DNA of 43,831 nucleotides, from the IMG/VR virus record IMGVR_UViG_3300021964_000003, positions 1 through 43,831 of that record; one strand, written 5' to 3'. The notes under the pieces are model-generated. The model ran no database searches, had not been told where the DNA came from, and worked only from the letters and a program-made list of their open reading frames with translations. Shown here one piece after another: positions 2,059 to 39,583 of the stretch (the first letter of the stretch is position 1; the number at the start of each line of letters is the position of its first letter). Origin of the DNA: a virus. A program made the translations under genes and the position numbers.

Positions 2059-2232
2059 TTATTCTTCCTCGTCACCCTCTCCACCTTTACCGGACATTGC
2101 TCCACCAAACATCATCATTGCTTTCGCGAATGCCGGATGAAGTGGTGGAATCTCATACTCCCTTGAAGTAGATGTTTTCTTCTCCTTCGAGATTGGTTTC
2201 TTTGATTTCTTCAATTGGTTTTCCGTAGGCAT
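2059..2232 (-). CDS. Small protein overlapping the end of the giant gene
   Basis: The open frame extends up to 2367, but most of that overlaps the 3' end of the 2673-residue gene. I place the start at the ATG at 2232 (MPTENQ), giving 57 residues; a start at 2283 (MSDYLN) is also possible, and neither has a good Shine-Dalgarno site. The C-terminal half carries EIPPLHPAF, a run of three Met and an acidic GEGDEEE tail, which looks protein-like and lies beyond the overlap. Function is unknown. Confidence 0.5.
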   Translation of the reverse strand: MPTENQLKKSKKPISKEKKTSTSREYEIPPLHPAFAKAMMMFGGAMSGKGGEGDEEE

Positions 2233-5200
2233 CTTGGACGAATCTCGTCCTTCTTGTTTTTTCTTGTTTAGGTAATCGCTCATTTTTTTCAGTATATTTT
2301 GGTCTGCCCATAAAGTCATCAACAAAAGCATCTCTGTCTGCTTCAGTAGCAGGGAACTTTCCGGCAATAGCTAACTCCCCTAAAATATCAAAACTAGAAT
2401 GACCAACAGCTTCCTTCTTGATCATATTCCAAGTGACCCAATGCATAGCAAATGCGGAATCAATCCAAGCGTAATCTTTTCTTTTCTTTCCAACCTGTTT
2501 TGCTAGATCAGAGAACATATATTCTAATGTCCGGTACATAGCATGTTCGACAGGATCATCTAATTGTGATCCGATAGTTTTATAATAACCTGATCTGTCT
2601 TCCGGTACACCCTTGGCATCCACTCGATATGGACTGACCCCAAATTTCACATATTCTTTTTTCTGCTTCTCAGCAAATTCCTTAGCAGTTTTTGAAGCTT
2701 CCGGATCAGCAATAATCTCATTTACTTTTTGCAGTCTGTCTTGAACTGCACCTTGGATTTGGTGTTCCCACACATTCACGAATTGCCATCTATCCATGAT
2801 CACAACATTTGGGTCTGCCATTAAAGCGATAACAAATGATGTTACTTTGTCCTTCACTCCGGCTCCAAGGAAACCTGTTGACCACATCTTCTCGCGGATT
2901 TGCTGACCATTTAAAGACTTGTCATTGAAGATTCCCGTCAATTCTTTCCATCGACCATTCCACTTAACAAGCATGTCATGGATTGCCTGAATATTTTGCT
3001 TGGCATTATTCCCTGCTGATACCGGACTCTTTTGATCGTTAAACATATTGGCAACGATGTCAGTAAATGTATCCGGTTGATCCTCGATGTTTCTTCGTTC
3101 AGCTTCGGAAGCTAAAGCAACCCTTTCTTTTTTTGGTAACTTTTTAATTCTTGAGTCGATGTAAGCTTTTTTCTGTTTTCCAATTACCTTAATTCTATCT
3201 TTAATTTTATCGACTCTTTTCTTTTCTTTTTTCTTCAGCTTATTAACTATGCGAGTCCGTAATTTATTTAACTTTAATTTCGGCAACTCACCTAATGAAA
3301 CTGCTTCCCGATAAAGTGGACTAGATTCAGCTAATGCTCGATAATCAATTTTAGTTGGCTCGATCTCTGATTCAAGTTCTCCAATTTTTACATCAAAATC
3401 TTTGTACCCTTTTTGCGATCTCCATCCGGCTCCATATTTTTCATCGGCAACCGCACTCATATCATAAAATGTACCCTTCTCCATTTCATAATTCCCATCA
3501 ATGGATTGGAAGATGGCATTCCACATTGGCTTATAGTTTGTTGTCCTAAGCCAACCTGCTTCCTGATTGTAAGGATCAAGCATCCGGCTAAGTAAACCCC
3601 ATATAAAACTCTGTGCTATCATTTCCGGAGGCTTAACAATGTCATGCAGTTCTTTCGCACTCTCATACCCTTCTTTAGCTAATTCTATAAATTCAGGATT
3701 AGTTGCCATTGTGCTGTCTAACCATCCGATCAATTGGTCAATGTCATTTACATAATCTAGGAATTTTGTAGGAGGTGCAGGGATGTCAAAACTACTTACA
3801 GAATTTAATCTAAGTTGATGAATCTTTTCCCAATTTTCCGGAGTCGCATATCGCTTTCCTAATTTTTTCATTAGGTTATCCGCGAGTGCATTGTCTGCAA
3901 AATATTGATCCCAATGAGACTGAGTCCAATCTTTTGAATTTTTTGTCAATTGAATTTCTGTTTTGTCATTATCATAACTTAACATTGGGAAACTCATTTT
4001 CGTATCTTTGCTCATTACCTCGCTCGGAACGCTTGGCATGAACATCAACGAATTCAGCATAGATTTTCTTACCCCATCTGATATCTGTCCACGATCAGAT
4101 TCAATGCTCTCGTGGCGAATTGCTCCCTTGTTTCTCCATCTCGCATCTGCAAAGGCAAGAGCATCTTCAGGTGCTTGTTCTTTGACTTCTTCTGTTGTGA
4201 AGGGGAAGTTTTCAGGTACTGATTGTTCCCCGTTATCTTTCCTTGTTTTAATTTCTGTTTTTGTGTCGATATCATAGATTGAATCTTGGTCACCCCATAT
4301 TGCCATTCTTACAGCATCTAGGTAGTTGTTAACAGGGAATGCGACATCGAGCATAAAGCCTCGCTCATCATTTAACCATCCCCCGATATGCGCCCCATCT
4401 TTTTTAAATCGATGAGCATGAGTTTTAATATAATTCCATAATGCAGTCCGGTTCATTTCCTGAATTGGAATAATAAATTCTGTTTCTTTTTCAGGTGCTA
4501 CAACATATCCGGTTTTCGCATGAATAAGATTACTTTGATCAATCGTGAATCCATAAGGATTTTTTTTCATATCCTCGATTAAATTATCAAAGTGTTGAGC
4601 AGTTTCATCCGTCAACATGGTGTATGGCATTGCAAGAATTACACCCTCGTTTCGGAATGTGAATTCCTGTCTTTTTAAGTCACCCGTATCTCCCCAAACT
4701 TTAGTCTGTGATTTTGCGTCAACAACAGCATAAGTTCTACCTCCATATTCTTCATGCATTTTAAATAAATCAAATCCATGTTTTTTATACAGGTATGTAT
4801 TAATTGAATTATCAGTAGTCTTAGATGGGTCACTAAGATTTGTTGCCACGCTTGAGGGACTTTCAAACATATTCCAATTAAGACCCTTTTCATGATATCC
4901 CTGCATCACGATTTCTTCCATTGCTTTTGGTGGAAGATTAGCCAAATCATAATCCTCACCTCTACGACCTGATATAAATACTTTGTTTAGCTTTTCCTTA
5001 AAACTTTGATCCATTATACTTTCCATGAATCGACCTTCAGGTGTATCTAATCGACTTGTTCCATCATTTAAAATTTCATTACCCTCAAATAATTCTGTAA
5101 GGTATGAAACTAGTGTTGGTATTTTTGTTTTTCTATATCTAGAACTAGGAGAATGAGTTCTCCATTGCCACACTACTGAATCAATGACATCTGTAATATT

Positions 5201-8200
5201 TACTCCATTAAAAGAAGTTCCAATATATTGTTGCCTATCCTCAAGTGGCATTTCTGCCCACCATTCGCTAATTAAATTTTGATGCTCAGGGTTATTAGTA
5301 TCCCACATTTTCTTACCCTTGATAACAAAAGTGGACTCGTCTTCTTGGGGAGAACTCATTCCTATTCCCCCTGCCCTATCATCCCTGTCAGTAAAGAAAG
5401 CTTGAAGTGAACCATACCGATGTCTTTGCTCTCCTATATCTTCTCTAAAATTTCCACGCTCAGTCATCATACCTGAATGTCCATGAACTAACACTATCGG
5501 CTCAGGTGAATCTTCTTTTGTCAATAGTCCACCCTCATGCCACTCTTTGAAATATTTACTATTGTAACCTTTCTCTTGGAACTCTTTATCGGCATCCATA
5601 AGAAGATCAATGTCTGCTCGACTCATGTTGGTCACATCCATTTCAAGTCTGCCATCTTTCACTCCGGCACTCCATGAAGGTTCAGGCATAAAGAATAACC
5701 CCTGACCTAAATTTCTTCTCTGATAGGTCTCATTGCTTGTCTTTAGTTTATGGTCATTAGCAAACATGTCATTTCCTTCAGTCGCTCGAAGAATCGTGTT
5801 TGTAATTATTGCTCTCTTGAAACTTGTTTCCCCAACGCCAAGTTGCAATGCACCATAAGTTTTTAAATATTTTATTAATCCAAAATCGTTTTTATCTGCT
5901 GACCTCCGCATCAACGGATGAATCAAATGCATCGTCTGTGGATTCTCATACCACTCTTTTGTTTCTGATCTTGTGGCATCTCCTTTAGGAAAAACTAAAT
6001 ACTCTTTTCCAATGTCATTACCCTGCCCGATTCGATGGTCTATTGCTAAATAATTTCCGGTATCAAAATCATACCTAAATGCATCAAGTAAATTAAAATA
6101 CTCCAAGTCAGTATAGGTAGAATCTTGATCATTTAAACCCTGAAGTTCTTGGGCTAAATCAGATGTTATATCATCCATATGAACCTCGGCAATTCTAGCT
6201 CGAACCTCATCTCTTTCCTTTAAGGCGAATGCTGTAATAAGCCGGACATAGGAATCAGAATTAGTGCTGTCCACCAAAACCTCATCTGTGTAGTCCCTTT
6301 GATTAAATTTATATTCCCCTCTTTTAGTCTTATGAAAACTGATGTGGTCTTTATTTTTACTTTTTAAAAGTTGTGATAATCTTGCACTTGCTGTCCTTAG
6401 ATCATTTACGCTAGTTAAATCTAAGTGAACAATTGGAATGCCAACCTGATCTGCAAAATCATACAATGCCTGATAAATTTTCTTTCCTGAAAAAACACTT
6501 CCAAATTGACCTGTTCCCTCTTTACCTAAATCAGTTGTATCGAGCCGGATTACAAATGGGAAATCTTGGTTTTGCCTTTCATTGATAATGTTTATTTTGA
6601 ATGAGGCTCCACCCTTCCAACCATCCTTCATTTTAGCTTCAGTATTGCTGTCAGTAATTTTATAGGTGATTCCAAAGTCATCAATAATTTGATCCTCAGT
6701 CACCAACTGATTTCCATCAATATCTGAAACCTGACTTAAATTAAATCCTGAATCTAATTCTACTTTAATGCCATCATAATTTGAAAGCACTTGTTCCAAC
6801 TCGTTTCCTAAAGCTTCGTAACTATCTCTCTTCCAATCTATCCTTGCTTGACCATTAGATTCAAGATCAATAGGAGGTTCCATGCCAAGTCCAAAATCAA
6901 TTTTCTGAGTGGCAAATATATCTTGATTTCCTTTAGTTGCACCAATTAAAAATGATCCAATTCTATCGACCTGATTTTGATTATCTTCATGTGGATTTAA
7001 TGCCCACTCAATCAACGATTCATTTAAACTTTCACCATCAATATTAAAATCAGAATCAGGGTCTCTGAGGATGGTTTCTATTTCATCATTAGTATACCTA
7101 TCAAACGAAGATGGTAATGCGATAAATCCATTTGTTCTATTTGATGTGACATATTTCTTTCTGCCTTGTGATGGAATAGTTGAATTTTCACTTCCCTGTC
7201 CGGATAGCATCGGCATGTAATTAAACTTTGCATTTTTGTAATCGTATGCATACCCACTCCGGTTTTCAGTATTCAATCCGGCAAGTGCAGAAACATCATA
7301 ACTTTTGAAAGCGTTTTTCATTTTATTACGCTCCGGATCAGAGAACCATTCGTTTCTATTTGGATCAACAATTCGTTCACCTGACTCCTTCATGCCCATT
7401 GCCATAACATAAAGTTCATTTTCTCCTTTACCCAATGGATTAATCTGTCCTTCATCTGTGCTTTCGCTTAAAACAGATTGTGCATGTTCAGCAAAATTCA
7501 TTTTAAAATCATCTACACTTATTCCATCCGGTAGCAATCCGGCATGTGCCATTATTTCTATGTTATTTTCAACAATGTCGGCATCATATGCCATTACCTT
7601 CAAGTTGGGATAGATAGTTCTACCCATGCGAGTGTAAGGCTTTTTAGGGCTTATTTGCCAAGCATAAGGAGTGACGCTTCTTTCAAAGAAGGGATTGTAA
7701 TCTGATCGATTTTTCCATGACGCTGAACGATATCCAAATTTCAGCATTTGTCTTTTGTCAATTGCCGATTGGATCATATCAATAACAGAGGTCACAGCAT
7801 TATTATATTTGCCTGACATTCCAAAAACTTGACGAGTCTTCCAATGTAAATTTTTACCTTCGTTCCCTTTTCCAATTCCGGTGAACTTCCCTGCTTCCCC
7901 TTCTTTACTACGAAGTGCATCTGCTTCTAGAAGTTGATTGTATTGAGTTGAGTCTTTTACATGGAAATGGGACGCGAGTGCCATGTTAACACCAATACCC
8001 CCAAACAACTGAGTGAATCTTTCATTTGCAGTTTGTCCATCTTCAGGAGCGTGTTTTCTTCCGGTCTCGATATCTTCTGCTCGTTGAGCTAAATGCTTTT
8101 GTTTTTCTTTTGTGTAATTATTAAAAACTTTCTTAACCTTATCGTTCGACAACATTGCCTCAGAAATTATGGACTTAGCATGTTTTTCAGTCTTGGGGTC

Positions 8201-10174
8201 AAGGACTCCCATTTTAGTTAATGCAGTCTTCATCGCGTCAAACAAAGAATGACGAATGCCTTTGTTCATATTAGCGAAAGCATTTGGATTTTCCTGAGTT
8301 GCTAGGCTCCATTGCTCGGCTCCAATTTCCTCAGATAATAATCCGGCATCACCCTTGCCATTATAATTTACATCAACAAGATTTCCCTTATCGTCCAATT
8401 GTCCGGTAAAGCCAAGTTGATGAGCGTATTCAGGTATACTTGGCATAATTGCCATTGCATAATCCTTGGCAAATTGAAATGCCTCTTTGTTAACCTTAAC
8501 ACCTCCTAAATTTTTTCCATTCTCATCGGTGTAAATAAATTCAACACCATTGTCATCTTGGTATTTTTCTAAGATTGCCCTGCGAGTCATCGGTGCTGAA
8601 CCAAGTAATTCTTTCATCGCATGATGCCCATGTTCATGAAGAAATTTTTGGGACGCTATCTTAGTTCCTTCTTTTATATATTTTTCATTTATATAAATTG
8701 TTCTAGATTTGCCATCGTAGAAAGCCGGAGGTACTTTACCTTCTTTAACTTTAGGAACTTTGATGTCCGGTGATCGATTTTTATTTATTGCTTCTCTTGC
8801 AAAATCATCACTTACAAGTTCCATCCGAAAATTACCAAGTCCGGCTAATTCATCGAGTGTAGTAAGTGCGACTTTGGACATATCATCCAAACCTTTAATC
8901 GCTTCAGCAGTTTCTCTATTTCCCTGCTGTTTTTTCTTTGCGATATAATTATCAACTCCGGTCTGCGAACGCTCAGAAAGTGATCCATCTTGGTTAAAAG
9001 CTGAACGAGATTTTCCTGATCCCCTCTGCCCACCAATAGCACCAACAGGACTACCCAATCCCATGCCCATACCGGTAGCATATCCAACTTCCTCCGCAGA
9101 CTTACCCTGTAGTCCCTCCATTGCTATTTGCATTGCCCCTGCTCCCAATCCTGCAACAAAAGAATCAAATGCAATATCATACATTTGAGTTCCCTTCATG
9201 TTGTACAAAGCTGTTGCTGTTTTGCGAGTTGCTTTGCTCACTTTGTCACTTGTTGCAAGACGATGTAAAAATCTAGAATGTGAAGAAGGTTGAGAAAATA
9301 TACTTGCGATTTCCCCAAGTTCCCTGCCTGTCTTTCCGGCAATTTTTGCCAAGACCTCTCCGGCATAAGAAAAAGAAATAGCCGATGCGATTGGGGCTAC
9401 AATGGGAGTAGTAATTCCACCTAGAGTTCCGGCAATTGATGCACCCTGAAGAACAGAATATCCTCCTCCAATTTTTGCATTGTCTGAAAGTTTTTTGGGC
9501 AGACCTAAAACATCACTAGTTTTTAACAATCCATCACCAACACCTTTTAACGCGAATGCAGATGCTTTAGCAGATTGCTTCAAGCCTTTCCTGACCATTT
9601 TTGATCCACCTTTCAACGCGATTGCTGATGGTAATAAATTTGTGGCATCAGTAAAGTCTGCTAAAAATGAAACCTTGTTTTGGAATTGATTGGTAGTCGC
9701 TTTTATAAAAGCTTCCCTAGCATCATTGAAATAATTCATTTGATGTTTATGCCGACCCCATGCCCTTTCTGCCCTTTGCTCTAAACTTAGCTCAGAATTA
9801 AAATGATCTTTAATATTACCGACTATTGCCTTGTAGGCATTATAAGAGTCTCTAGCACCTAGTTCAGAACTTCCGATAAAGCTTCCCCATGCGTCTGCCA
9901 TATCTCCATCCTTGTCACCCAAACCTAGCATAGACATAGTCATGGACTTGCCATTCCAAGCTTGTGGAATTTCCTCAGTCACTAAATTGCGAAGACCTTC
10001 AGGAACAGCTTTTGCATATTCCCATATTGCTTCACCATAACCACGATTTTCTCTCCTCATCCAATCCTGAATGAAGTATTCCTTTTCCCTATCCTCCGGA
10101 GTTATGGTCTCAGTTTTGTAGTCTATCTCATCTGACTCTTTAAGACTCTCTTCTAGTTTTGAATAATCAATCAT
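2153..10174 (-). CDS. Giant polyvalent / ejection protein with zinc-metalloprotease motif
   Basis: This encodes 2673 residues, starting in an ATGA overlap with the preceding ejection protein. Residues about 170-390 hold Ala/Gly-rich hydrophobic stretches suited to membrane insertion. An HEHGHH sequence at about 513-518 fits the zincin HExxH motif. Near residue 1563 VHGHSG, followed by FFTD, resembles the start of ADP-ribosyltransferase-like folds, but I see no convincing catalytic Glu. The remainder is unassigned, with Lys-rich helices toward the C-terminus. As the last and largest of three virion-type genes after the tail, it is probably packaged and injected, as known for phage polyvalent proteins and T7/N4-type internal proteins. 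Ejection is inferred; the HExxH motif is seen. Confidence 0.85.
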   Translation of the reverse strand: MIDYSKLEESLKESDEIDYKTETITPEDREKEYFIQDWMRRENRGYGEAIWEYAKAVPEGLRNLVTEEIPQAWNGKSMTMSMLGLGDKDGDMADAWGSFIGSSELGARDSYNAYKAIVGNIKDHFNSELSLEQRAERAWGRHKHQMNYFNDAREAFIKATTNQFQNKVSFLADFTDATNLLPSAIALKGGSKMVRKGLKQSAKASAFALKGVGDGLLKTSDVLGLPKKLSDNAKIGGGYSVLQGASIAGTLGGITTPIVAPIASAISFSYAGEVLAKIAGKTGRELGEIASIFSQPSSHSRFLHRLATSDKVSKATRKTATALYNMKGTQMYDIAFDSFVAGLGAGAMQIAMEGLQGKSAEEVGYATGMGMGLGSPVGAIGGQRGSGKSRSAFNQDGSLSERSQTGVDNYIAKKKQQGNRETAEAIKGLDDMSKVALTTLDELAGLGNFRMELVSDDFAREAINKNRSPDIKVPKVKEGKVPPAFYDGKSRTIYINEKYIKEGTKIASQKFLHEHGHHAMKELLGSAPMTRRAILEKYQDDNGVEFIYTDENGKNLGGVKVNKEAFQFAKDYAMAIMPSIPEYAHQLGFTGQLDDKGNLVDVNYNGKGDAGLLSEEIGAEQWSLATQENPNAFANMNKGIRHSLFDAMKTALTKMGVLDPKTEKHAKSIISEAMLSNDKVKKVFNNYTKEKQKHLAQRAEDIETGRKHAPEDGQTANERFTQLFGGIGVNMALASHFHVKDSTQYNQLLEADALRSKEGEAGKFTGIGKGNEGKNLHWKTRQVFGMSGKYNNAVTSVIDMIQSAIDKRQMLKFGYRSASWKNRSDYNPFFERSVTPYAWQISPKKPYTRMGRTIYPNLKVMAYDADIVENNIEIMAHAGLLPDGISVDDFKMNFAEHAQSVLSESTDEGQINPLGKGENELYVMAMGMKESGERIVDPNRNEWFSDPERNKMKNAFKSYDVSALAGLNTENRSGYAYDYKNAKFNYMPMLSGQGSENSTIPSQGRKKYVTSNRTNGFIALPSSFDRYTNDEIETILRDPDSDFNIDGESLNESLIEWALNPHEDNQNQVDRIGSFLIGATKGNQDIFATQKIDFGLGMEPPIDLESNGQARIDWKRDSYEALGNELEQVLSNYDGIKVELDSGFNLSQVSDIDGNQLVTEDQIIDDFGITYKITDSNTEAKMKDGWKGGASFKINIINERQNQDFPFVIRLDTTDLGKEGTGQFGSVFSGKKIYQALYDFADQVGIPIVHLDLTSVNDLRTASARLSQLLKSKNKDHISFHKTKRGEYKFNQRDYTDEVLVDSTNSDSYVRLITAFALKERDEVRARIAEVHMDDITSDLAQELQGLNDQDSTYTDLEYFNLLDAFRYDFDTGNYLAIDHRIGQGNDIGKEYLVFPKGDATRSETKEWYENPQTMHLIHPLMRRSADKNDFGLIKYLKTYGALQLGVGETSFKRAIITNTILRATEGNDMFANDHKLKTSNETYQRRNLGQGLFFMPEPSWSAGVKDGRLEMDVTNMSRADIDLLMDADKEFQEKGYNSKYFKEWHEGGLLTKEDSPEPIVLVHGHSGMMTERGNFREDIGEQRHRYGSLQAFFTDRDDRAGGIGMSSPQEDESTFVIKGKKMWDTNNPEHQNLISEWWAEMPLEDRQQYIGTSFNGVNITDVIDSVVWQWRTHSPSSRYRKTKIPTLVSYLTELFEGNEILNDGTSRLDTPEGRFMESIMDQSFKEKLNKVFISGRRGEDYDLANLPPKAMEEIVMQGYHEKGLNWNMFESPSSVATNLSDPSKTTDNSINTYLYKKHGFDLFKMHEEYGGRTYAVVDAKSQTKVWGDTGDLKRQEFTFRNEGVILAMPYTMLTDETAQHFDNLIEDMKKNPYGFTIDQSNLIHAKTGYVVAPEKETEFIIPIQEMNRTALWNYIKTHAHRFKKDGAHIGGWLNDERGFMLDVAFPVNNYLDAVRMAIWGDQDSIYDIDTKTEIKTRKDNGEQSVPENFPFTTEEVKEQAPEDALAFADARWRNKGAIRHESIESDRGQISDGVRKSMLNSLMFMPSVPSEVMSKDTKMSFPMLSYDNDKTEIQLTKNSKDWTQSHWDQYFADNALADNLMKKLGKRYATPENWEKIHQLRLNSVSSFDIPAPPTKFLDYVNDIDQLIGWLDSTMATNPEFIELAKEGYESAKELHDIVKPPEMIAQSFIWGLLSRMLDPYNQEAGWLRTTNYKPMWNAIFQSIDGNYEMEKGTFYDMSAVADEKYGAGWRSQKGYKDFDVKIGELESEIEPTKIDYRALAESSPLYREAVSLGELPKLKLNKLRTRIVNKLKKKEKKRVDKIKDRIKVIGKQKKAYIDSRIKKLPKKERVALASEAERRNIEDQPDTFTDIVANMFNDQKSPVSAGNNAKQNIQAIHDMLVKWNGRWKELTGIFNDKSLNGQQIREKMWSTGFLGAGVKDKVTSFVIALMADPNVVIMDRWQFVNVWEHQIQGAVQDRLQKVNEIIADPEASKTAKEFAEKQKKEYVKFGVSPYRVDAKGVPEDRSGYYKTIGSQLDDPVEHAMYRTLEYMFSDLAKQVGKKRKDYAWIDSAFAMHWVTWNMIKKEAVGHSSFDILGELAIAGKFPATEADRDAFVDDFMGRPKYTEKNERLPKQEKTRRTRFVQDAYGKPIEEIKETNLEGEENIYFKGV

Positions 10175-26674: not shown

Positions 26675-26920
26675 TTACTTAGGGCTAATAAAACGATACC
26701 AAGTTGATCGAGTTCTTTGCTTGTGAACAGGATTCCACTCTGAACCTTTATGGACTTCAATTTTACCTTCCTTAATTCCATTCTGAATTATTCGGTAAGC
26801 GCGATTAGTCCCTAACCCTGCTTTTTGTGCGAAATCTTTAAATTTCATCCATCCTTTACCTTTTGGTAAATTAGCAGGGGTGTCCAAAAGTTCTTGGAGA
26901 GTTTTCCAACTTAGCGCCAC
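26675..26920 (-). CDS. Small helix-turn-helix-like protein
   Basis: This encodes 81 basic residues. Residues about 22-55 (WMKFKDFAQKAGLGTNRAYRIIQNGIKEGKIEVH) have the spacing of a winged helix or helix-turn-helix. The gene overlaps the end of the metallophosphoesterase gene by 10 bases and lies just before the leader of the scaffold-capsid genes, so regulation of late transcription is possible. DNA binding is inferred from the pattern. Confidence 0.65.
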   Translation of the reverse strand: MALSWKTLQELLDTPANLPKGKGWMKFKDFAQKAGLGTNRAYRIIQNGIKEGKIEVHKGSEWNPVHKQRTRSTWYRFISPK

Positions 26921-27624
26921 AAAAATTTACCTTCAAATTTGCGAGCAGTATAGCAAGCCCAAGATTTATTAGAAAAATAACCATACACCCATCCGGTTTC
27001 ATGTGCTAGTCGATTTACTTTCGCGCGATTCCATTCCATTGCTGTTGTCGCTAAACATCCGGCACTTACTCCGGCTCCACCTCCAATTTTGGGAATTGAT
27101 GCGTGTTGAATCGAGTGAATATGACCATGAACTACTAGTCCACCTGATTGACTAAAAGTTTCTGCATGTCGTTTTGTTGCTGTAACACCATGATAAAAGC
27201 CATGCAAAAAATTTATTTTTCCAAGACTAAGAACACCTTTATCAACATCGTATGGATACATTTTACATTTTATGGAACGACATTTTTTTTCTATGTCTTT
27301 TATGCAAATTTTTGCAGTATCCCTGATCAAGCCTAATGAGTGCTTATTTGCAGTTTGCCACAATCGATCATCATGATTCCCAAGCAAAAAATGGTGAGGT
27401 TGAAACTTATTTAAAAATTCCATCCCTGCCCAAACATCTGCTTCCATCGAGGCATTTTTTTCTGCCGGATCAGCATTTTTCATTAGTGGAGAAAAATCAA
27501 AAAGGTCTCCACCAAAAATCCTCACATCGGGATTGAATTCCTTTACAAATTTTAAAAGTTGCTCAACAGAGTCATAGCATTGCTTATCTCCATGCAAGTC
27601 AGATGCATACACAAATGATTTCAT
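26911..27624 (-). CDS. Calcineurin-like metallophosphoesterase
   Basis: This encodes 237 residues with all family motifs in order: DLHGD at 9-13, GGDLFD near 39, GNHDD near 82, HGFYHG near 140 and HGHIHS near 168. These supply the metal ligands of a dinuclear phosphoesterase. The substrate cannot be told; the family includes nucleases, phosphatases and cyclic-nucleotide phosphodiesterases. It is unusual in lying inside the head operon between portal and scaffold, overlapping its upstream neighbour by ATGA. Confidence 0.88.
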   Translation of the reverse strand: MKSFVYASDLHGDKQCYDSVEQLLKFVKEFNPDVRIFGGDLFDFSPLMKNADPAEKNASMEADVWAGMEFLNKFQPHHFLLGNHDDRLWQTANKHSLGLIRDTAKICIKDIEKKCRSIKCKMYPYDVDKGVLSLGKINFLHGFYHGVTATKRHAETFSQSGGLVVHGHIHSIQHASIPKIGGGAGVSAGCLATTAMEWNRAKVNRLAHETGWVYGYFSNKSWACYTARKFEGKFLWR

Positions 27625-36775: not shown

Positions 36776-37417
36776 TTAGAAATCCTCCTCTCCAAAAGTT
36801 CCGGTAGATTCGATCTTCTTATCCTCGTCCAAGAATATTCCCTGCCATCCATTTTGGACTGATCGGTTAAGTGCCTTGATGATTGGCTCAACACCCTGTT
36901 CTTCGAGAATGGGATCAAACGATTTCCAAATCCTTTTCATGGTAGTGGGCTTGATCGTTTTCTTCAGTTCCTTCCGCATCTGAACATATTCATCCCATGC
37001 CTCTCTCAGACTCTCTATATATATATCTATATCTTTATTAATAATATTATATATTTTTAAGGTGCGCACGAGAGGTGCTGTCACTTTTACCCCTTTTTGG
37101 GGGTTTTTGCTGTCACCCTCATTTTGCTCAGGCTCCCAATCAATAATTTCCGGTGCTGTCACTTTTGCCTGTTTTTGGGGGTTTTTGCTGTCACTTTGGA
37201 AATCAGGCTTAATTACCTCTGCTGTCACATTTGCCTTAAACTGAGGCTTTTTGCTGTCACTTTGAACATCGTTAATTTTGTAAATATCGATGCCTTGGAT
37301 GATCAGGTGCTTGATAATTTCATTCGTAGACATCTCATATTGATCTGAGATTGCCTTCAATTGATGCCGGAGGAAATCCGGCAATGTGATCGTGAGTCTT
37401 TGTTTAAAATGGGACAT
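36776..37417 (-). CDS. Replication initiator-like protein containing the origin
   Basis: I start it at the ATG at 37417 (MSHFKQRLTITLP), overlapping the SSB gene by 14 bases; the open frame to 37504 lies wholly inside SSB. This gives 213 residues. An N-terminal ribbon-helix-helix-like segment is followed by three SDSKxPQ...VTA repeats and a helical C-terminal domain (ESLREAWDEYVQMRKELK). The repeats reflect DNA iterons read in two frames. An initiator sitting on its own origin just before a DnaC-like loader matches lambda O. The protein family is not firmly known. Confidence 0.7.
   Translation of the reverse strand: MSHFKQRLTITLPDFLRHQLKAISDQYEMSTNEIIKHLIIQGIDIYKINDVQSDSKKPQFKANVTAEVIKPDFQSDSKNPQKQAKVTAPEIIDWEPEQNEGDSKNPQKGVKVTAPLVRTLKIYNIINKDIDIYIESLREAWDEYVQMRKELKKTIKPTTMKRIWKSFDPILEEQGVEPIIKALNRSVQNGWQGIFLDEDKKIESTGTFGEEDF
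37015..37260. other. Predicted replication origin: six iterons and an A+T-rich unwinding region
   Basis: The minus-strand 9-mer GTGACAGCA occurs six times in one orientation at 37076, 37108, 37154, 37186, 37220 and 37252 (left ends), as three pairs with members 32 bases apart. Within a pair a CCCC/GGGG or GCCT/AGGC inverted repeat is often present. Beyond the array lies an almost pure A/T stretch at 37015-37060. Iterons plus an adjacent A+T-rich region inside an initiator gene is the lambda ori layout. Confidence 0.75.
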
Positions 37418-37841
37418 CGTCTTCGTCTTCCTCCTCCACAAAATCATCTTCAAAGGATGGTTCCGCTTGGAGGTCACTTGCCGTATCCCTGCCATTGCCA
37501 TCATCCACCACAGATTCAGTTAATGTTGTTGCCGGAAGATACTTGAATATTTTCTTGTATCCGGCTTTATCTATCCCTGCTTCAACTTGAATTTCCTTCC
37601 CAAAGAAAAACTCAAATTGATGTTTACCAACCTTATCCCAAGAACTTGATTCAACACCAAGTGCCTTGAAGAATAAATCCAACTTCCATTGGCAAGATGC
37701 CATCAGAAAAAAGGAGTCGTAATAAGTATTCTCATCGACATTGAACATTACAGAAAGGAATTTATTTCCGTTCTTCGTGAGGTTAGGAGTTCCATCTTGT
37801 TTGGTGTCATAACACCCAACTATTTTTGCTATTTGTTTCAT
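37404..37841 (-). CDS. Single-stranded DNA-binding protein
   Basis: This encodes 145 residues. The first 105 are beta-rich with aromatics, consistent with an OB fold. An acidic tail follows, ending EDEDDVPF, which matches the DDDIPF-type C-terminal tip by which SSB recruits partner proteins. It lies one base after the exonuclease stop and overlaps the initiator gene. The body is diverged from bacterial SSB, so the tip and context carry the call. Confidence 0.8.
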   Translation of the reverse strand: MKQIAKIVGCYDTKQDGTPNLTKNGNKFLSVMFNVDENTYYDSFFLMASCQWKLDLFFKALGVESSSWDKVGKHQFEFFFGKEIQVEAGIDKAGYKKIFKYLPATTLTESVVDDGNGRDTASDLQAEPSFEDDFVEEEDEDDVPF

Positions 37842-37842
37842 A

Positions 37843-38574
37843 TTAAAATTCAGCGTTTGCTGTGTAATTATTCAATTCGTTCATATCCCCATGTAAGTTC
37901 GATGCCCGTTTCCAAAACCTTTCGACCAAGTCTTTTGATCCATTTGGATCATCCTTCTTGGCAAAGTCTAAACAGGTTCCGAAATCACCTTCATTAATGT
38001 AGCCAATTGCTACCGGATCGGAGAACTGAGCGTGTAGCCCTGCCTTGTCCTTAATCGCATCAAAATGACCCTCTCTTGCCTCCTCTATCTTTGCCTGTCT
38101 TTTCTCAGGGTCTTTGATGTTACCAAGCTTTACCTTTTCTTCCTTAAAAGCCGGAGCCAATTTTTGAAGTTCAAGGTCACCCTTTGGTGCTGTTTCGATA
38201 TCAAAGAAAACACATCGTTCTTCAACATAAGCGTTGAGGTAATTATTCATCGACCTGAAAACATTTCGAGTCTGCATCATATCATTCTCAAGGTATGATT
38301 CCTGTTCCTCCCTAGGGAGTTGATAAAAGAACTTTCCGTTACCATTTTTTCCCTCATGCCCTGTCCACTTTGATAGATTATTTAGCGATACTCTAAACCC
38401 CCATTCTGAGGCTCCAAAGAACTCATTAGTGTCAACCCATATTGTGGGAAGTTTTCCAAATTTCTTATTCGCCAAGTGGCTCAAGTAAACAGGTACTTTT
38501 ACCTGATTCAACATTGACCAACGAATTAAATATGGAACATCAAAGTTCCGGATATTATGTCCTACTAAATGCAT
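37843..38574 (-). CDS. DnaQ-type 3'-5' exonuclease with circularly permuted motif order
   Basis: This encodes 243 residues, starting in a TAATG overlap with the ERF gene; an in-frame stop lies two codons upstream, so this start is firm. The first residues are LVGHNIRNFDVPYL (Exo II, Asp12), then SYLENDMMQT (Exo III, Asp98), and only then FFDIETAP (Exo I, Asp125 and Glu127) with the LGNIKDPEK stretch that normally follows Exo I. The usual order is I-II-III. The C-terminal end (VERFWKRASNLHG) is what normally precedes Exo II. All acidic residues are kept, so activity is plausible. Family membership is well supported; permutation is inferred. Confidence 0.82.
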   Translation of the reverse strand: MHLVGHNIRNFDVPYLIRWSMLNQVKVPVYLSHLANKKFGKLPTIWVDTNEFFGASEWGFRVSLNNLSKWTGHEGKNGNGKFFYQLPREEQESYLENDMMQTRNVFRSMNNYLNAYVEERCVFFDIETAPKGDLELQKLAPAFKEEKVKLGNIKDPEKRQAKIEEAREGHFDAIKDKAGLHAQFSDPVAIGYINEGDFGTCLDFAKKDDPNGSKDLVERFWKRASNLHGDMNELNNYTANAEF

Positions 38575-39266
38575 TATTTATTCCCCCACTTTTTAACTTT
38601 GTCCTTAATTTCCTGATCAGTAAAATTCAGGAAAGTTTTACATGCTTTGATTGAAGATGTGTCCGGATAGAATCCAATTGCATCAGCATACTTTAATGCC
38701 TTTAGCTCGGACAACTTCTCTAATGCTAATTTTCTTATCTCGGTATCAGATAATTCAATCTCAGCTTCCGGTTCCGGTTTGGGTTCGGCTTTCTTTGCCG
38801 GAGGTTTTGGCTTAGGCTTAGGCTCCGGTATCGATTCAACCTCTCCGGCTCCATCAATATCTTCCTCACTCGCGATGCCAAAATAAGTGGTAAGTTGATA
38901 CCGCCTAAAATAGGTCAGGCAACTACCAAGAGATTGCTCCGGACTCATCCCCTTTTTTTGAGTCACATCAAATGGAAAGAAAGAACTTGGCAATCGCTCG
39001 CCACTTTCGTGCATTAAGAAAAGCTCAAGCACTAGTTTTCCATGATCATCAGATTGGATCATTTGAATATAAGCTAATCCATGCTTGTTAAGGACTTTTA
39101 GGATCGTAACGACCGAAGGAAGTCCTGCGAATTTATATCCGAACCCCTGTTCCGTTTTCCTCGGATTAGTAAGTTCTGCCTGAGCTTTAACAAAAGCAGA
39201 ATAGATTTCCTTAGAAGAAATTTGAGTAGCAGAAATGCTAGGTGTTTTATTTTTTTCATCATTCAT
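38574..39266 (-). CDS. ERF-family single-strand annealing protein
   Basis: This encodes 230 residues. YSAFVKAQAELTN, FGYKFAGLPSVVTILK, FPFDVTQKKGMSPEQSLGS and LTYFRRYQLTTYFGIASEEDID follow the ERF pattern. The Pro/Lys/Glu linker near residues 150-170 is typical between the core and a small C-terminal domain. ERF proteins anneal single strands during phage recombination and circularisation. Coupled to the exonuclease by TAATG and to the nuclease gene by one base, it forms a recombination module. Confidence 0.87.
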   Translation of the reverse strand: MNDEKNKTPSISATQISSKEIYSAFVKAQAELTNPRKTEQGFGYKFAGLPSVVTILKVLNKHGLAYIQMIQSDDHGKLVLELFLMHESGERLPSSFFPFDVTQKKGMSPEQSLGSCLTYFRRYQLTTYFGIASEEDIDGAGEVESIPEPKPKPKPPAKKAEPKPEPEAEIELSDTEIRKLALEKLSELKALKYADAIGFYPDTSSIKACKTFLNFTDQEIKDKVKKWGNK

Positions 39267-39583
39267 TATTGTTCGTTGTTTAGTAGTTGTAGAAAATCAT
39301 CTAACCTCATGGTGATCAGATTTTCATGATTGTTTTTTGTGTGAATTACGCATGGTGGTTTTCCTTTGGAATCCTTTATTGCTTGCGTAAAAGCTTTATA
39401 TAAATTCAGTTTTTCGACATGTTTACATTCCACTGAAAAAGGGAAATCAGGACAGGTGACATCTGCGTCTCCATTAGCACCACAGAATTGCTGTGATCGA
39501 TGTGCCGGATACCCATTGTCAGTCAACAGGTGAGCAATCGCCCTTTCAAACCTAGCGCCCTTCTGCTTGGAATTTATAGGCAT
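39266..39583 (-). CDS. PD-(D/E)XK resolvase-like endonuclease
   Basis: This encodes 105 residues. KGARFERAIAHLL provides the first-helix Glu, GDADVTCPDF a catalytic Asp and FSVECKH the ExK motif, the order found in Holliday junction resolvase-like phage nucleases. Length fits a minimal single-domain enzyme. With ERF and the exonuclease it would process recombination intermediates. The start at 39583 overlaps the preceding small gene by 32 bases, which is unusually long, so an internal start is possible. Confidence 0.8.
   Translation of the reverse strand: MPINSKQKGARFERAIAHLLTDNGYPAHRSQQFCGANGDADVTCPDFPFSVECKHVEKLNLYKAFTQAIKDSKGKPPCVIHTKNNHENLITMRLDDFLQLLNNEQ

Follow-up and report, generated by a model that had tools for sequence, protein, structure and literature searches.

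The window analysed here, a 43,831-base IMG/VR virus record (IMGVR_UViG_3300021964_000003), carries genes for a terminase, a portal protein, a major head protein, an integrase, a RusA-like resolvase, an Erf single-strand annealing protein, an O-like initiator and a DnaC-like loader. A metallophosphoesterase with weak SbcD-like similarity (26911-27624, minus strand) lies among the structural genes, and a 2,673-residue open reading frame (2153-10174, minus strand) probably encodes a large internal virion protein. Next to the Erf gene, at 37843..38574 on the minus strand, lies a gene whose product contains the three motifs of a DnaQ-like exonuclease in an order other than the one usual in the family. 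Is this protein a naturally occurring circular permutant, and would it still work as a nuclease?

The gene comprises 243 codons and a TAA stop, and its homologues with the same motif order are 42-90% identical. Its ATG shares the sequence TAATG with the stop codon of the Erf gene and is preceded, two codons before it, by an in-frame TAA (TAA-ATA-ATG). These two features fix the start codon, as the initial annotation had stated. All features of the gene described below lie on the minus strand. Residues 1-111 (segment B, 38242..38574) correspond to the C-terminal half of the normal enzyme and match positions 112-218 of a profile of normal-order relatives as well as positions 54-173 of the Pfam family PF10108. 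This segment carries Exo II, GHNIRNFD (residues 5-12, 38539..38562), which is here N-terminal, and Exo III, YLEND (residues 94-98, 38281..38295), which is of the DEDDy type and forms part of the longer stretch YLENDMMQT (residues 94-102). A new junction at residues 112-120 (38215..38241) joins the old C-terminus to the old N-terminus. Residues 121-243 (segment A, 37846..38214) correspond to the N-terminal half of the normal enzyme, match a profile of that half and can be aligned to normal-order relatives. They contain Exo I, VFFDIET (residues 122-128, 38191..38211), and the stretch NIKDPEK (residues 152-158), and end at the linker that normally precedes the Exo II strand, followed by a variable tail. 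The motifs of the window protein thus run from Exo II through Exo III to Exo I, and the usual Exo I-II-III order is absent.

At the sequence level, comparisons with the halves exchanged support the view that the protein is a circularly permuted DnaQ-like exonuclease. In its native order, the protein matches PF10108 over residues 2-109 only (E-value 7.5e-5, 22.9 bits), slightly under the curated cut-off of 24, while the version with swapped halves passes this cut-off over a longer span (4.5e-8, 33.5 bits). Judged from these matches, the relationship to the family is far beyond chance. A tblastn search of 50,697 phage records with the native-order protein gave no match. The same search with the swapped protein matched 12 records with a best E-value of 1e-9, and in eight of these the match spanned 80% or more of the query. 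The swapped sequence aligns with normal-order phage relatives at 23-28% identity. The permuted protein also has a weak match to PHROG 32099 (E-value 0.11).

To locate the breakpoint, rotations of the window protein were scored against a profile built from 17 normal-order phage relatives. The native start yielded 39.0 bits and covered profile positions 112-218 only, that is, one half. The maximum was reached by rotations starting at residues 112-121, which coincide with the junction of the old termini. Here the score rose to 68.5 bits over profile positions 2-218, the full-length match that the initial annotation had expected from a search with the halves exchanged. Six other permuted proteins behaved in the same way, and normal-order controls peaked at their native start or within about ten residues of it. 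The distance between the Exo III and Exo I aspartates is 25-27 residues in all seven permuted proteins compared, and a direct end-to-end fusion of normal enzymes is expected to give 18-31. When placed on the predicted structure of a normal-order relative, the new termini fall in the linker between a helix ending at residue 111 and a strand starting at residue 122.

Because the window derives from metagenomic data, the unusual order could in principle have been produced from a normal gene by a rearrangement during assembly or binning. We consider the chance of such an artefact to be negligible. The same order is found in at least seven distinct proteins on at least eight IMG/VR contigs, with protein identities of 42-95%, synonymous divergence among the close contigs amounts to 0.5-0.8, and, where the flanks can be read, the contigs have the synteny of Erf, exonuclease and SSB-like genes in common. 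Independent contigs thus refute a rearrangement during assembly, one of the two outcomes that the initial annotation had named as speaking against a permutation. Two close relatives, on contigs L002 and L003, were found directly and are 90 and 87% identical to the window protein. Scans for an ATG closely followed by an Exo II motif added at least five more contigs, which encode at least four distinct proteins sharing 42-50% identity with that of the window. All seven permuted proteins compared start 4 to 7 residues ahead of the GHN of Exo II. The search for relatives with the same order, proposed with the initial annotation, therefore returned at least seven other contigs, and the proposed Exo II-III-I order holds in the open reading frame, in the motif positions, in the rotation maximum at residues 112-121 and in its recurrence.

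Outside this clade, all 118 matches that cover both halves, from viral contigs, phages and cellular genomes, show the order Exo I-II-III, a count that gives no estimate of how frequent permutation is because the relatives were retrieved with a normal-order query. A search for permuted relatives in cellular genomes with a profile of three permuted proteins gave no match among 396 genomes of Bacteroidota and 399 of Pseudomonadota. A seven-protein profile matched a single Pseudomonadota genome, and this match, confined to positions 4-115, is a normal-order gene. The phage record GU943054 (E-value 0.07) was excluded as a relative, its match running across several annotated open reading frames. The permuted clade is probably larger than found so far.

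Structure prediction gave a less complete picture. The AlphaFold2 model of the permuted protein, computed from an alignment with only three permuted rows and with the halves of relatives as separate rows, has a mean pLDDT of 64, and residues 1-62 fall below 50. The Exo II strand is absent from this model, and a Foldseek search with it gave no PDB match with an E-value below 0.8. Over residues 63-232, where the model is better, the elements come in the order that a permutation predicts: the Exo III helix (88-111), a strand (120-129), a helix (156-177), two strands (186-196 and 201-204) and a helix (212-228). Their counterparts in the normal-order model are the helix 206-227, the strand 2-9, the helix 40-67, the strands 73-81 and 87-90 and the helix 97-111. 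The normal-order relative was predicted with a pLDDT of 95. In the PDB it best matches family-B polymerases, which carry this exonuclease domain. Since the permuted model is poor, the assignment of a DnaQ/RNase H-like fold to the permuted protein rests on homology. The initial annotation had named two halves of different folds as the other outcome that would speak against a permutation. At the level of sequence, both halves belong to the same phage subfamily of one exonuclease family; the model is too poor to answer the point structurally.

Whether built from the rotated full-length protein or from either half, phylogenetic trees group the permuted proteins in one clade (support 100) inside one phage subfamily, which is separate from the cellular proteins of Bacteroidota. 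An earlier set of trees, with three permuted members only, likewise recovered one clade within the phage subfamily. These trees also bear on the notion that the protein is a chimera whose halves stem from two different exonuclease genes. A phage can possess more than one DnaQ-like gene, as Cellulophaga phage Calle_1 illustrates. However, both half trees put the permuted clade into the same subfamily of 25 rows (support at least 95), and a chimeric origin is accordingly unlikely. The simplest reading of the trees is a single permutation event in one phage lineage. The stem of the clade is long, with 2.23 changes per site, and its function may therefore have shifted. The ratio dN/dS is 0.10-0.11 between the window gene and its two close relatives and 0.06-0.11 when all three close members are compared with one another. 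Over the junction (codons 108-124, window and L002) it drops to 0.03. The permuted form is thus inherited under purifying selection.

How could such a gene arise? A tandem duplication of a normal exonuclease gene would probably have been the first step. The two copies would then have been joined end to end, C-terminus to N-terminus, and once their outer halves were lost, the order Exo II-III-I would have remained. This route, which the initial annotation had put forward, is plausible because the junction spacing equals that of a direct fusion of C- to N-terminus. No intermediate or remnant of a tandem duplication was found, and a second copy of either half is absent from every open reading frame checked. 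We also considered the C-terminal tail as a remnant of a second Exo II-III copy (AATAATTAC..AACGCT in the window; 25 nt at 72% in L003) and do not claim it as such. The similarity scores between tail and junction in the window and in L002 were reached by most codon shuffles, and that of L003 is borderline (92/1000).

If the permuted protein folds like its relatives, the chain would start at the Exo II strand, pass through the Exo III helix directly into the Exo I strand and end at the helix-loop that normally lies ahead of Exo II. Exo I, II and III would then assemble the usual two-metal active site, and only the positions of the free ends would be altered. Such an enzyme would trim or edit 3' ends. 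The four acidic residues noted at the outset, D12, D98, D125 and E127, are all present. Together with the Exo III tyrosine Y94, which accompanies them and assigns the protein to the DEDDy class, they are invariant in all seven permuted proteins compared, down to 42% identity. Invariant in the same proteins are G5, H6, N7 and F11 of Exo II, and I126 and T128 of Exo I.

This conservation, together with a dN/dS of about 0.1, argues against a loss of nuclease activity after which the protein, its fold retained, would act as a subunit that binds Erf or SSB or provides a scaffold for them. The long stem branch of the clade would fit such a loss, as would the lineage-specific stretch GK-GNGKFFYQ, found where normal members carry DGSxVW, but we regard it as improbable. 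This stretch (residues 75-85, 38320-38352) is near-invariant in the permuted clade and may form a clade-specific surface for a substrate or partner. Slightly less probable still is an enzyme active only as a domain-swapped dimer, with the Exo II-III half contributed by one chain and the Exo I half by another. The rearranged halves and the short junction could conceivably favour swapping, yet the junction spacing suits an intramolecular joining of the old ends, and nothing that we found requires a dimer. The protein is thus very probably a stand-alone PolB-like 3'-5' exonuclease of the DnaQ superfamily and DEDDy type that has undergone circular permutation in nature, and we infer its fold, activity and route of origin.

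The surroundings of the gene point to its likely role. Directly upstream, and overlapping it through the TAATG, lies the Erf gene (38574..39266, minus strand; Pfam ERF, E-value 1.7e-22), and Erf also neighbours the permuted exonuclease at the loci L282, L286 and L280. A RusA-like resolvase or PDDEXK_15 nuclease (39266..39583, minus strand; PHROG 244, 1.3e-27; PF24608, 2.1e-12) belongs to the same module. Directly downstream, a small protein with an acidic DDVPF tail (37404..37841, minus strand) is a putative SSB, judged from its tail and its position. No Pfam or PHROG family matches it. Both L002 and L003 conserve this protein, and the corresponding protein of L280 shows a sub-threshold match to DUF669. 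In permuted loci with both flanks readable, the gene order is Erf, permuted exonuclease, SSB-like, O-like and DnaC-like.

Normal-order relatives occur in similar neighbourhoods: of 63 open reading frames that flank them at 18 loci, seven match ERF and five match SSB, more than any other family. Erf and SSB genes adjoin the normal-order exonuclease in phages MW202520 and MG592390, and in Vibrio phage 1.003.O the exonuclease, ERF and SSB genes are adjacent. As normal-order relatives are often found beside Erf and SSB genes, the permuted protein is most likely the 3'-5' exonuclease of a phage Erf/SSB recombination-replication module, and we infer a partnership with Erf. Phage C75C1 (OQ984151, 17923-18684; locus L150), the sole phage record that matches both the terminase and the portal of the window, has Erf and SSB genes as well; its annotated exonuclease is a PD-(D/E)XK nuclease and not PolB-like.

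The permuted clade, which belongs to uncultured bacterial viruses, is a variant of a known exonuclease family. It has its motifs and catalytic residues in common with the stand-alone exonucleases of PF10108 (DNA_pol_B_exo2, COG3298) from Vibrio phage 1.003.O, Rhizobium phage RHph_Y25 and phage MW202520, is of similar length and often shares their Erf/SSB neighbourhood. However, the known members are arranged as Exo I-II-III and the permuted clade as Exo II-III-I. Through the homology of its normal-order relatives, the clade also resembles, in fold and DEDD site, the exonuclease domain (PF03104) found in family B DNA polymerases, but it is permuted and lacks a fusion to a polymerase. A precedent for the natural permutation of a phage DNA enzyme is provided by the circularly permuted DNA adenine methylases of jumbo phages (PMC7824862), whose fold and reaction are unrelated to those of the exonuclease. 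A classification of the RNase H-like superfamily (PMC3985635), in which PF10108 is cluster F.12, says nothing of permutation. A non-exhaustive full-text search of open-access papers found no published permuted DnaQ-like exonuclease, in agreement with the initial annotation, which knew of no described permuted member.

With some reserve, we lean towards the view that this clade is the first case of natural circular permutation in the DnaQ-like (DEDD) exonuclease superfamily, that the permuted form became fixed a single time in one lineage of phages and still functions as a catalyst, and that its relocated termini possibly serve an interaction with Erf or SSB. Such enzymes are likely missed in phage annotation, because the native sequence falls under the Pfam cut-off and has no annotated phage match. 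Circular permutation inside an ancient and very widespread catalytic fold is apparently rare in nature. The permuted clade and its normal-order relatives, found in similar neighbourhoods, thus constitute a natural experiment on how far a two-metal nuclease tolerates moved termini.
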